A stretch of DNA of 64,000 nucleotides. Source: Stappia sp. 28M-7 (lineage in GTDB: Bacteria > Pseudomonadota > Alphaproteobacteria > Rhizobiales > Stappiaceae). Each line of letters starts with the position of its first letter. Within the stretch, counting starts at the first letter, position 1. Made by a program: the position numbers and the translations under genes. This document shows, piece by piece, positions 25,503 through 29,632 of this stretch. The stretch is from assembly GCF_014252955.1 (NCBI RefSeq), contig NZ_JACMIA010000001.1:3060258-3124257 (forward strand), in the 5' to 3' direction. The notes beneath the pieces are model-generated. The model was not told where the DNA came from, ran no database searches, and was given only the letters and a program-made list of their open reading frames with translations.

Positions 25503-26924
25503 ATGGGGGAGAGCACCATTTTCAACGAGATGCTGACCGCCGACGGCAAGCCCCGCGCGCCCTACAGGCGGCTCGCCGAATGGTTCGACACCCTGTCCCC
25601 GGCGGACATGCGCAAGAAGTCGCGCGAGGCGGAGACGATCTTCCGCCGCCTCGGCATCACCTTCGCCGTCTATGGCACGTCCGAGGCCACCGAGCGGCTG
25701 ATCCCGTTCGACATCGTCCCGCGCGTGCTCTCGGCCTCCGAGTGGCGACGCCTGTCGGCTGGCATCGACCAGCGGGTGCGCGCGCTCAACGCCTTCCTCT
25801 ATGACATCTACCACCGCCAGGAGATCGTGCGGGCCGGCCGGGTGCCTGCGGAGCTGATCCTGCAGAACGAGGCGTTCCTGCCGGAGATGATCGGCTTCAC
25901 CCCGGCGCGCCGGGTCTATGCCCATATTATAGGCACCGACCTCGTGCGTGTCGGCGAGGACGATTTCTACGTGCTTGAGGACAACACCCGCACCCCGTCC
26001 GGCGTCTCCTACATGCTGGAGAACCGCGAGACGATGATGCGGATGTTCCCCGAGCTGTTCCAGCAGAACCGGGTGGCGCCGATCGAGCACTATCCGGACA
26101 TGCTGCGCGAGACGCTGGAGAGCGTCGCGCCGGAGAACTGCGACGGCGATCCGACCGTCTGCATCCTGACGCCGGGCATCTACAACTCCGCCTATTTCGA
26201 GCATGCCTTCCTCGCCGACTCGATGGGCGTGGAGCTGTGCGAGGCGCGCGACCTCTATGTGGAGGACGGCAAGGTGTGGATGCGCACCACCCAGTCGCCG
26301 CAGCGGGTCGACGTGATCTACCGGCGCATCGACGATGCCTTCCTCGATCCGCTGACCTTCCGCCCCGACAGCATGCTCGGCGTACCGGGCCTGTTCGACG
26401 CCTACCGGGCGGGCAACGTGACGATCTGCAACGCGCCGGGCACGGGCATTGCGGACGACAAGGCGATCTATGCCTATGTGCCGGACATCATCGAGTTCTA
26501 CACCGGCCAGAAGCCGATCCTGAAGAACGTGCCGACCTGGAACTGCGCCAAGCCCGACGACCTGGCCTATGTGCTGGACCGTCTGCCGGAGCTGGTGGTG
26601 AAGGAGGTGCACGGCTCGGGCGGCTACGGCATGCTGATCGGCCCGACCGCCTCCAAGCGCGAGATCGCCGAATTCTCCAAGCGGCTAAAGGCCAATCCCG
26701 CCAACTACATCGCCCAGCCGACGCTGGCGCTGTCGGCCTGCCCGACCCATGTGCAATCGGGGCTGGCTCCCCGCCATGTCGACCTCAGGCCCTATGTGCT
26801 GGTCGGAGACAAGGTGCGCATCACGCCCGGCGGACTGACCCGCGTGGCGCTGAAGAAGGGCTCCCTGGTGGTGAATTCCAGCCAGGGCGGCGGCACCAAG
26901 GACACCTGGGTTCTGGAGGACTGA
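25503..26924 (+). CDS. Circularly permuted type 2 ATP-grasp protein
   Basis: A 473-residue cytoplasmic protein of the circularly permuted ATP-grasp family (often listed as DUF404/DUF407). Family landmarks are NAFLYDIYHRQEIVRAGRVP near residue 100, DFYVLEDNTRTPSGVSYMLENR near residue 157 (DNxRxPSG, metal/ATP region), NAPGTGIADDKAIYAYVPD near 309 and LVVKEVHGSGGYGMLIGP near 365. ATP-grasp enzymes join a carboxylate to an amine, so a peptide ligase or tagging role is proposed in the literature on this cluster. The next gene (alpha-E) starts six bases after the stop, and transglutaminase and Anbu genes follow. The substrate is unknown. Confidence 0.92.
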   Translation: MGESTIFNEMLTADGKPRAPYRRLAEWFDTLSPADMRKKSREAETIFRRLGITFAVYGTSEATERLIPFDIVPRVLSASEWRRLSAGIDQRVRALNAFLYDIYHRQEIVRAGRVPAELILQNEAFLPEMIGFTPARRVYAHIIGTDLVRVGEDDFYVLEDNTRTPSGVSYMLENRETMMRMFPELFQQNRVAPIEHYPDMLRETLESVAPENCDGDPTVCILTPGIYNSAYFEHAFLADSMGVELCEARDLYVEDGKVWMRTTQSPQRVDVIYRRIDDAFLDPLTFRPDSMLGVPGLFDAYRAGNVTICNAPGTGIADDKAIYAYVPDIIEFYTGQKPILKNVPTWNCAKPDDLAYVLDRLPELVVKEVHGSGGYGMLIGPTASKREIAEFSKRLKANPANYIAQPTLALSACPTHVQSGLAPRHVDLRPYVLVGDKVRITPGGLTRVALKKGSLVVNSSQGGGTKDTWVLED

Positions 26925-26930
26925 CGAAAC

Positions 26931-27878
26931 ATGCTCGGCCGTACCGCCGCATCCCTGTTCTGGACCTCGCGCTACAACGAGCGGGCGGAGAACATGGCCC
27001 GCCTGCTGGAGGTGGGATACCGCATTGCCATGACGCCGCGTCTGGGCCAGGACGCCGCCGACGACTGGCGTTCGACGCTGGTCAGCGCCGGCTGCGACCA
27101 GGGCTTCTTCAAGAAGCACGAGGAACTGACAAAGCGCTCCGTCGTCTCGCACATGCTGTTCGACCCGGAAAACCCCTCCTCCGTGCGCTCCTGCATCGAG
27201 GCGGCCCGCAACAACGCCCGCTCGGTGCGCACCGCCATCACCGGCGAGATGTGGGAGAGCCTGAACACGACCTATATCGACTTCATGGAAGTGCGCCCGC
27301 AGCACATGACCGACGACAAGCTGCCGGGCTTCCTGACCTGGATCAAGCAGCGCTCCATGCTGTTCCGCGGCGCCATGCTCGGCACCTTGATGCGCGACGA
27401 GGGCTACCACTTCTCGCAGTTCGGCTGCTTCATCGAGCGGGCCGACAACACCTCGCGCATCCTCGACGTGAAATACTGGATCCTGCTGCCGGACAACGAA
27501 GTGGTCGGCGGCGAGCTCGACCGGTACCAATGGTCGACGATCCTGAGGTCGGTCTCTGCCCATCGCAGCTATCGCCATGCCTATCGCGATGCGCAGATAC
27601 GCCCGTTCAACATTGCCGAGTTCCTCATCCTGCGAAAGGAGATGCCGCGCTCGCTGGCCTATTGCTACGACTGGATCACCGAGAGCATGGAGGGGCTCAC
27701 CCTGCGCTACGGCGAGCGGCCGATGAGCTACGACATGGCCCAGCGCACCCACGAGCTGCTGGACCAGGGAACCATGCGGCAGATCTTCCAAGGGGGACTG
27801 CACGAGTTCCTCGGCAACATGATCGCGAGAAACAACGGACTAGGCGCGCAGCTCGCCGCGGACTACCACTTCGCCTGA
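26931..27878 (+). CDS. Alpha-E domain protein (DUF403 family)
   Basis: A 315-residue all-helical protein with family signatures LGRTAASLFWTSRYNERAENMARLLE at the N-terminus (in part), FGCFIERADNTSRILDVKY near residue 165 and LRKEMPRSLAYC near 225. The biochemical activity is not established. It is nearly always adjacent to the circularly permuted ATP-grasp gene and is thought to work with it, either as a helical partner or as a substrate-handling domain. The six-base gap to the upstream gene implies co-translation. Confidence 0.92.
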   Translation: MLGRTAASLFWTSRYNERAENMARLLEVGYRIAMTPRLGQDAADDWRSTLVSAGCDQGFFKKHEELTKRSVVSHMLFDPENPSSVRSCIEAARNNARSVRTAITGEMWESLNTTYIDFMEVRPQHMTDDKLPGFLTWIKQRSMLFRGAMLGTLMRDEGYHFSQFGCFIERADNTSRILDVKYWILLPDNEVVGGELDRYQWSTILRSVSAHRSYRHAYRDAQIRPFNIAEFLILRKEMPRSLAYCYDWITESMEGLTLRYGERPMSYDMAQRTHELLDQGTMRQIFQGGLHEFLGNMIARNNGLGAQLAADYHFA

Positions 27879-27957
27879 CAGGAAACGCGAACCGAACGAT
27901 CGGAAGCCGGCGGCGACAAGACGCGAAGCCGACCGAACACGAGGAAGCCCGAGAGCC

Positions 27958-28779
27958 ATGCGCCTCAACGTCAGACATGTGACCCGCTATCGGTACGAGC
28001 ACCCGCTCGCCCATATGGTCCAGCAGCTGCGCCTGACGCCGCCGAGCCTGGCCGGACAGAAGGTGATCTCCTGGACCATCGACGTGCCGGGCTACGAGCG
28101 CTCTGCCCGCTACATCGACGCCTTCGGCAATCCGGTCGCCATCGTCAGCCACCGCGAGGCGATGAGCGAGCTGACCATCGCCGTCGAGGGGCTGGTGGAA
28201 ACGCAGGACCGCGCCGGCGTCGTCGGTCACCCGCGCAGCCCCGCCCCCGACAACGTGTTCTGCCGCTTCACCTCGCTGACCCGCGCCAACCCGGCGATCC
28301 GCCGGCTGGGCGCCATCGCCGAGCGCGACGGGCCGGACGCGGTCGCCGGCTTTCACGACCTGATGCACGCGATCCGCGACAAGGTCGCCTATCGCACCGG
28401 CGTCACCGAGGTGCACACCACCGCCGCCGAGGCGCTGAACGCCGGCGAAGGCGTGTGCCAGGACCACGCGCATATCTTCATCGCCGCGGCCCGCACCATC
28501 GGCGTGCCGGCGCGCTATGTCTCGGGCTACATGCTGCTGGAGGGCGGACAGGATTCGGAGGCGCATCACGCCTGGGCCGAGGTTCTGCTGCCGCAGCTCG
28601 GCTGGGTCGGCTTCGACATTTCCAACGGCATGTGCCCGACGGACCGCTACATCCGCCTCACCTGCGGGCTCGACTCGCGCTCCGCCGCGCCGATCCGCGG
28701 AATCCGCATGGGCGGGTCCGGCGAGAACATGGATGTGGAAGTGGCGGTTTCGCAGGAATCGCAGCAATCTCAGCAATAG
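27958..28779 (+). CDS. Transglutaminase-like cysteine protease family protein
   Basis: A 273-residue protein with an N-terminal beta domain (MRLNVRHVTRYRYEHPLAHM, bacterial transglutaminase-like N-terminal) and a papain-like core. The triad is visible as Cys in GEGVCQDHAHIF, His in SEAHHAWAEVLLP and Asp in WVGFDISNGMCPTD. No signal peptide is visible, so it is predicted cytoplasmic. It follows the alpha-E gene by 79 bp. In this context it may hydrolyse or form amide bonds on the product of the ATP-grasp enzyme; that is inference from conserved association. Confidence 0.92.
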   Translation: MRLNVRHVTRYRYEHPLAHMVQQLRLTPPSLAGQKVISWTIDVPGYERSARYIDAFGNPVAIVSHREAMSELTIAVEGLVETQDRAGVVGHPRSPAPDNVFCRFTSLTRANPAIRRLGAIAERDGPDAVAGFHDLMHAIRDKVAYRTGVTEVHTTAAEALNAGEGVCQDHAHIFIAAARTIGVPARYVSGYMLLEGGQDSEAHHAWAEVLLPQLGWVGFDISNGMCPTDRYIRLTCGLDSRSAAPIRGIRMGGSGENMDVEVAVSQESQQSQQ

Positions 28780-28900
28780 GACCGTTGCCGGAACGGCAGC
28801 GAACCTGTCAAATCTGCCGGAGCCGGCGCAACGCGCGAATCGCCGCCGCGCGCGATCCGGCCGGGCGCGCGCCCTTCCCGTTTTCGGAGACTGCCTGATC

Positions 28901-29632
28901 ATGACCTATTGTGTCGGTCTGAAGCTCGATCGCGGCATCGTGATGGCCGCTGACACGCGCACCAATGCCGGGCTCGACAATGTCGCCACCTTCAAGAAGC
29001 TGCATGTGTGGGAAAAGCCCGGCGACCGGGTGATCTGCATGATGGCGGCCGGCAACCTGGCCGTCACCCAGTCGGTGGTGAGCCTGCTCAGCGAGCGGCT
29101 GAAGAGCGAGGATCCGGGCCGGCCGACGCTGCATTCGGTGGACACCATGTTCCAGGCGGCGCGGCTGGTGGGCAGCGCCGTGCGCGACGTGCGCGCCATC
29201 GACGGCGAGGCGCTGGCCGCCAATTCGGAGAGCTTCAGCGTCACCTTCCTGCTGGGCGGTCAGATCAAGGGCGAGGCGCCGCGCCTCTTCCAGATCTATT
29301 CCGCCGGCAACTTCATCGAGGCCTCTGCCGACACGCCCTTCCTGCAGATCGGCGAACACAAATACGGCAAGCCGATCCTCGACCGGGTGACGCAGGCGGA
29401 CATGCGCCTCGGCCAGGCCGCCAAGCTCGTGCTGCTGTCGTTCAACTCGACGCTGCGCTCGAACCTGTCGGTCGGCATGCCCATCGACATGCTGCTCTAC
29501 AACACCGACAGCTTCTCCGCCCATCGCCAGACCCGCATCCGCGAGGACGATCCCTATTTCGCGGACCTGTCGCGCATGTGGTCGGAAAAGCTGCGCGACG
29601 CGGTGGCCGAGATTCCCGACTTCGAGATCTGA
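28901..29632 (+). CDS. anbu: Anbu-type bacterial proteasome-like protease (peptidase family T1)
   Basis: A 243-residue NTN-hydrolase. Removing the initiator Met from MTYCVGLKLDRGIVMAADTR would expose Thr as the N-terminal nucleophile, as in proteasome beta subunits. The GIVMAADTRTNAG strand and the KKL segment further on (FKKLHVWEKPGDRVI) fit the Anbu (ancestral beta subunit) family. GGAG lies 11 bases before the chosen ATG at 28901; the in-frame region upstream has no family similarity. It follows the transglutaminase gene by 121 bp. Known Anbu proteins form open or helical assemblies and have no proven substrate. Confidence 0.9.
   Translation: MTYCVGLKLDRGIVMAADTRTNAGLDNVATFKKLHVWEKPGDRVICMMAAGNLAVTQSVVSLLSERLKSEDPGRPTLHSVDTMFQAARLVGSAVRDVRAIDGEALAANSESFSVTFLLGGQIKGEAPRLFQIYSAGNFIEASADTPFLQIGEHKYGKPILDRVTQADMRLGQAAKLVLLSFNSTLRSNLSVGMPIDMLLYNTDSFSAHRQTRIREDDPYFADLSRMWSEKLRDAVAEIPDFEI

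Follow-up and report, generated by a model that had tools for sequence, protein, structure and literature searches.

A conserved glutamine-rich C-terminal tail on the transglutaminase-like protein of the Anbu operon, examined from a Stappia locus

What does the Anbu operon act on, and with which of its parts? The question is raised by four open reading frames (ORFs) in a 64,000-nucleotide stretch of the genome of Stappia sp. 28M-7 (contig NZ_JACMIA010000001.1, positions 3,060,258 to 3,124,257), referred to here as the window. All four lie on the + strand at positions 25503-29632 and encode, in order, an ATP-grasp ligase (G), an Alpha-E protein (E), a transglutaminase-like protein (T, or TG) and the proteasome-like protein Anbu (A). 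The original prediction treated them as a single peptide-tagging and proteolysis system, an idea that is itself a published hypothesis of Iyer et al. (2009), as quoted in PMC5666114 and PMC6376114. Anbu is a proposed ancestor of the proteasome, and the available Anbu literature names no substrate, partner or peptidase activity (PMC5666114, PMC6376114). We find that the TG of this operon carries a glutamine-rich C-terminal tail that is conserved in its relatives. A conserved tail on a neighboring enzyme is a first candidate lead to the function of the operon, and it is both concrete and testable. Tentatively, we read the tail as a peptide substrate for ligation by the ATP-grasp/Alpha-E pair, with a docking role close behind.

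The TG of the window ends in QESQQSQQ (28753..28776, + strand). A tail was scored when the last residue is Gln or when at least two Gln occur among the last six residues. Two samples of loci, numbered with the prefix L, were pooled. The first consists of the window and L032-L191, with 100 loci around Anbu and 60 hand-picked from Alpha-E and TG matches; the second is made up of named loci, the best 80 of at least 594 matches, and is therefore biased to near relatives. Together they give 166 unique TGs whose ATP-grasp and Alpha-E neighbors are encoded by separate genes (matches above 160 bits, with the duplicate L225 = L075 removed). The tail is present in 152 of these 166 TGs, compared with 52/782 background ORFs of at least 150 residues in the loci of the first sample, among which a terminal Gln occurs in 40/782. 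Where Anbu is adjacent, that is, on the same strand and within 3.5 kilobases (kb), 122 of 127 TGs have the tail, and one of the five without it, L192, comes from a gene split in two, of which the second part ends in QQ. Without an adjacent Anbu the tail is found in 30/39, some of which have Anbu elsewhere in the genome. Counted by family, the 95 modules of the first sample fall into 31 families; a Gln-ending TG is found in 24 of them, and the tail is the majority state in 26.

In the genus of the window the TG ends in QQ in 14/14 members, and CAA and CAG are both used at each of the two positions. Such constancy despite mixed codons is what would be expected under selection on the protein. The tail of this genus is anchored at its right end, as the terminal Gln is constant while the tail length and the inner residues vary. 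We also asked whether such an ending is a common feature of the genome, using the pattern QxQQ-stop, and this idea is rejected. The pattern has 8 sites in the Stappia genome, 4 of them with a true stop, namely the TG, a 400-codon frame (L282) and two frames of 84 and 322 codons judged by eye to be non-genes. The tail appears to be new: it goes unmentioned in the available text of PMC5666114 and PMC6376114 and in our literature searches, though Iyer et al. (2009) or the Hyphomicrobium Anbu paper may have noted it.

With which protein does the tail work? A terminal Gln is seen in 0/15 TGs beside a fused G-E gene, in 0/7 other TGs and in 0/3 large TGs, and the wider tail measure, applied to both samples together, scores 1/16 TGs beside fused G-E and 0/2 other small TGs. 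The TG fold as such therefore does not bring the tail with it. Of the 166 TGs, 8 have lost the catalytic Cys, 7 of them with no adjacent Anbu (Fisher test, 1.7e-4). Four of the eight Cys-less proteins retain the tail (L045, L149, L170 and, scored on its final residue alone, L194), which makes it unlikely that the tail serves solely the active site of its own protein. One family contributes nine genomes that have no Anbu match at all (L153-L161); the Q-rich tail is present in 9/9, with Ser or Gly as the last residue in seven. Because the tail survives both the absence of Anbu and the loss of the Cys, and separate G and E genes are always present, by elimination we take the separate ATP-grasp/Alpha-E pair to be its most likely partner. 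Glutamine-rich segments are also found at other places. In Devosia L194 and L197, where the TG Cys is lost and Anbu is not adjacent, a Q-rich insert (QSQSQGG and QTQGQG, respectively) lies right at the dead active-site loop. Among modules without an adjacent small TG, a Gln-rich end (for example QSQSQ, RQQ or QQQ) occurs on the ATP-grasp protein in L134, L135 and L138, on Alpha-E in L169, L277 and L278, and on the large TG in L267. A shift of the tail to G, E or Anbu wherever the small TG is missing was considered and rejected as a general rule: it is seen in 2/33 TG-less modules, and the same fixed measure scores 3/124 modules with a tailed TG and 4/43 with a tail-less TG, two of these four being Alpha-E proteins with no more than a YLQ ending. 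This measure is stricter than the TG tail criterion, and L277 and L278 were not among the modules scored.

Among ATP-grasp enzymes, those of the glutathionylspermidine-synthase and RimK kinds work on the C-termini of peptides. In our tentative reading, the ATP-grasp/Alpha-E pair would be the core of the system and Anbu an accessory peptidase, and the Gln-rich C-terminus of the TG would be the working end, a peptide presented to the pair. The pair would activate a carboxylate on the tail, either the C-terminal one or that of a Gln deamidated to Glu, and the activated carboxylate would then be ligated to an amine or a peptide. The Cys of the TG and the Thr of Anbu would hydrolyze or transfer the resulting bond, and the process would run under nitrogen limitation in several proteobacteria. 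Covalent modification of the tail is our guess. The complete cycle on the operon's own TG, with the ATP-grasp/Alpha-E pair adding at the Gln-ended C-terminus and the TG and Anbu cutting or transferring the product, we consider improbable as a whole; if true, it would represent a second bacterial route, built from other enzyme folds, to proteasome-linked modification of a terminal glutamine.

The conservation of the tail can also be explained by docking or assembly. The tail would then not be a substrate; it would hold the TG on the ATP-grasp/Alpha-E pair, or insert between Anbu subunits as the activator tails of HslUV do, and conservation anchored at the right end fits this just as well. Piasecka et al. 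point out that the groove between Anbu subunits could accommodate a tail like that of HslU (PMC6376114). A terminal Gln is also commoner with an adjacent Anbu (107/127) than without (14/39; Fisher test, 1.8e-8, not corrected for kinship). Among 15 phylogenetically independent pairs, with L192 left out, only 4 are discordant, all of them Gln-with-Anbu and 0 the opposite, too few to count, so the association is only a hint. Docking is weakened by the presence of the tail in most modules that have no adjacent Anbu. It is also weakened by the co-expression and pull-down experiments of Piasecka et al. (2018), in which no stable complex was found, though the TG there bore a C-terminal FLAG tag (PMC6376114). 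Such a tag would cover the conserved residue, which may bear on the negative pull-down if the Yersinia TG has the tail; this masking is a possibility and does not contradict the published result. On balance, docking is possible but somewhat doubtful.

The four genes themselves are found in the order and with the identities of the original prediction. The gene for the circularly permuted ATP-grasp ligase (25503..26924, + strand) encodes 473 residues that match PF14403 (E=5.8e-170), and the alignment with PDB 3n6x covers residues 6-473, almost the full length (E=2.8e-201); an alignment of 14 sequences has many invariant columns. In L085, L089, L097, L100, L115, L116, L162, L163, L275 and L276 the last residue of the ATP-grasp protein is Cys; in other loci it is mostly an acidic or other residue. 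The ATP-grasp of Yersinia releases phosphate from ATP without stimulation by Anbu, HslV, glutamine or glutamate, in an assay that was run without the TG or Alpha-E (Piasecka et al. 2018, PMC6376114). The Alpha-E protein (26931..27878, + strand; 315 residues; PF04168, E=6.2e-92) has no credible relative with a solved structure in a sequence search. The TG (27958..28779, + strand; 273 residues) matches PF08379 (E=1.9e-21) and PF01841 (E=3.7e-22), with 3isr as the best solved match. Its predicted catalytic triad is intact in the alignments as Cys167-His204-Asp220, the codon of Cys167 lying at 28456..28458 (+ strand) by translation and alignment. The gaps between the genes are 6 base pairs (bp) for G-E, 79 bp for E-T and 121 bp for T-A.

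The Anbu gene (28901..29632, + strand; 243 residues; PF00227, E=3.7e-11) starts within a larger ORF at 28517-29632. Its product matches five distinct solved sequences (5nyj, 5nyf, 5loy, 5nyw and 5lox), which are named Anbu, designed Anbu or peptidase, and the best of these is the Hyphomicrobium Anbu 5nyj (E=8.9e-97). Thr2, proposed earlier as a possible nucleophile, becomes Thr1 once Met is removed and is accompanied by Asp17 and Lys32 (published numbering), as judged by eye and from the PDB alignments. In Anbu of P. aeruginosa, epoxomicin and MG132 bind Thr1, yet standard substrates are not cleaved (PMC5666114; also PMC6376114). Known Anbu particles are 12-14-mer lock-washers. Searches of the Stappia genome give a single match each for PF14403, Alpha-E, the TG N-terminal domain and Anbu. 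The sole HslV match lies elsewhere (C1:186253), and the window Anbu does not belong to the HslV family. On the upstream side the operon is flanked by a chemoreceptor gene, which is the nearest, and by a gene for an ABM-like protein, a weak match; on the downstream side, convergent genes encode an FtsX permease and an ABC ATPase. No AAA+ unfoldase is present among these four flanking genes, in agreement with the first reading.

How tightly are these genes bound to each other? In a survey of 397 Pseudomonadota genomes, Anbu is present in 161, Alpha-E in 232 and the TG N-terminal domain in 228. Alpha-E occurs in 158/161 Anbu genomes and in 74/236 Anbu-less genomes (Fisher test, 6e-48, not corrected for kinship). 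Gene order was compared by tblastn in 101 Anbu loci: the window, 11 loci of more closely related genomes, second copies among them, and 89 from a phylum search (88 genera, leaving out the 10 genera with the weakest Anbu matches). The count of adjacent genes, which the original prediction had proposed as a check, gives the order G-E-T-A in 71/101 loci, one with an extra T, far beyond chance; 9/101 are otherwise arranged, and 21/101 have no partner gene within the fetched stretch. Since Anbu is absent from 74/232 Alpha-E genomes, Anbu looks accessory, the ATP-grasp/Alpha-E pair looks like the core, and the TG is common. The original claim of a single tagging and proteolysis pathway is partly supported: the near-constant company of Alpha-E with Anbu favors a link, the Alpha-E genomes without Anbu, the three Anbu genomes without Alpha-E and the partnerless loci limit that link, and the published tests of Anbu peptidase activity were negative on standard substrates, with no stable complex (PMC6376114). 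Genomes G134, G287 and G377 carry Anbu without any match for Alpha-E or the TG N-terminal domain. In eight loci of one GTDB family (L084, L098, L101, L102, L111, L114, L117 and L120), a partnerless Anbu has the C-terminal extension K-[IL]-[ST]-x(3)-[ED]-K-L-I. An ORF in the neighbor cluster of 6 stand-alone Anbu loci (e.g. L117) we take to be MutS. A complete G-E-T-A operon whose TG ends in SQQAQQQ is carried by the Klebsiella pneumoniae plasmid pKp_SB612_1, typed as conjugative IncFII (L275).

Regulation brings in another explanation, in which the enzymes would serve the nitrogen supply by making or salvaging a small peptide or amide, Anbu would be a co-induced general protease, and the tail would be of little importance. 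A strict sigma-54 site is found in 22/197 upstream regions of ATP-grasp genes and in 1/197 on the reversed strand; with a relaxed pattern the counts are 33/197 and 13/197. In P. putida under nitrogen limitation, PP_2686-PP_2688, the three neighbors of the Anbu gene, are up 11- to 15-fold in the first of three strain columns (PMC7801951), and PP2685, the Anbu gene itself, is up 11-fold in the first column of another study (PMC3325844). With nitrate compared to ammonium, PP_2685 and PP_2688 are up by log2 4.4 and 4.0, respectively (PMC8050072). In B. cenocepacia the related cluster requires NtrC and sigma-54 (PMC5491218), and COG3484 appears in a survey of the sigma-54 regulon (PMC12316311). This induction favors a role in nitrogen supply, as do the Anbu loci and genomes in which Anbu stands apart from its partners and the modules that lack the tail. 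Such a role leaves unexplained why the tail is so much more frequent in these TGs than in the background and why it is anchored at the extreme C-terminus, and we consider it rather unlikely.

Several observations count against ligation of the tail under nitrogen limitation, in addition to the docking role that accounts for the same conservation. The tail is missing in 14/166 modules and so is not a universal requirement; L094, L106, L265 and L268 are among these and have both Anbu and an intact Cys. Four further plasmid modules with separate G and E, outside the 166, are divided: L275 and L276 have the tail, and Tsukamurella L272 and B. cenocepacia L280 do not. All 166 TGs come from Pseudomonadota. 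Beyond this phylum, the plasmids of Tsukamurella and Granulicella have no terminal Gln on either small TG, the Granulicella module being of the fused kind and that of Tsukamurella not fused. The Anbu gene of P. putida, PP_2685, is up just 1.1-fold in the first column, and 4.8- and 1.5-fold in the other two, of the experiment in which its neighbors are strongly induced (PMC7801951). Finally, the 420 bp upstream of the ATP-grasp gene of the window contain no -24/-12 sigma-54 site even by the relaxed pattern, and the link to nitrogen is therefore borrowed from other species.

The Pup system works with a true 20S proteasome and an AAA+ ATPase. A Pup-like scheme can be drawn for the Anbu operon, in which the terminal Gln is deamidated to Glu by the TG domain and joined to target lysines by the ATP-grasp enzyme, and Anbu then degrades or releases the product. 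An ATP-grasp enzyme, a transglutaminase-fold protein and a relative of the proteasome are indeed encoded together, and mycobacterial Pup ends in a Gln that is deamidated and then ligated (PMC7947786). The tail studied here, on the other hand, belongs to an enzyme and not to a free small protein; it is kept in half of the Cys-less TGs and in Anbu-less genomes; and the ligase and deamidase folds are unlike PafA and Dop. There is also no conserved fifth gene: no other family of at least 90 residues, the shortest ORFs compared, recurs in more than 9/101 loci within about 3 kb upstream and 1.5 kb downstream. Such a scheme seems very improbable.

Compared with known systems, the operon of the window shares with the Pup-proteasome a terminal Gln, a ligase and a proteasome relative, and differs from it in that Pup is a free tag protein handled by enzymes of the glutamine-synthetase fold (PMC7947786). 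The NtrC-regulated cluster I35_5080-5083 of B. cenocepacia has the ATP-grasp, Alpha-E and small TG genes in common with the window, and its fourth gene encodes a large TG where the window has Anbu (PMC5491218). In two Burkholderia loci of this layout, L217 and L218, Ser replaces the TG Cys and the Gln tail is absent; in B. cenocepacia L280 the Cys is present, the tail is absent and no large TG is detected. The module of fused ATP-grasp/Alpha-E with a large TG contains the same domains, but G and E form one protein of ~850 residues, and the adjacent small TG lacks the terminal Gln. The closest counterpart is the published Anbu operon, already known from comparative genomics as the original prediction had stated, which has these four families in identical order, Anbu Thr1/Asp17/Lys32 and no AAA+ partner (PMC5666114, PMC6376114; Iyer et al. 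2009 quoted there). The operon of the window has no difference from it in gene content. The S1 positions of its Anbu, read by eye as Thr20-Phe30-Ala48-Leu52-Thr55, agree at 3/5 with Thr20-Phe30-Thr48-Leu52-Ser55 of P. aeruginosa and are clearly unlike Ile-Ala-Arg-Arg-Thr of Anbu-2. The Stappia locus is an ordinary copy of the known operon, probably of the standard Anbu-1 type.

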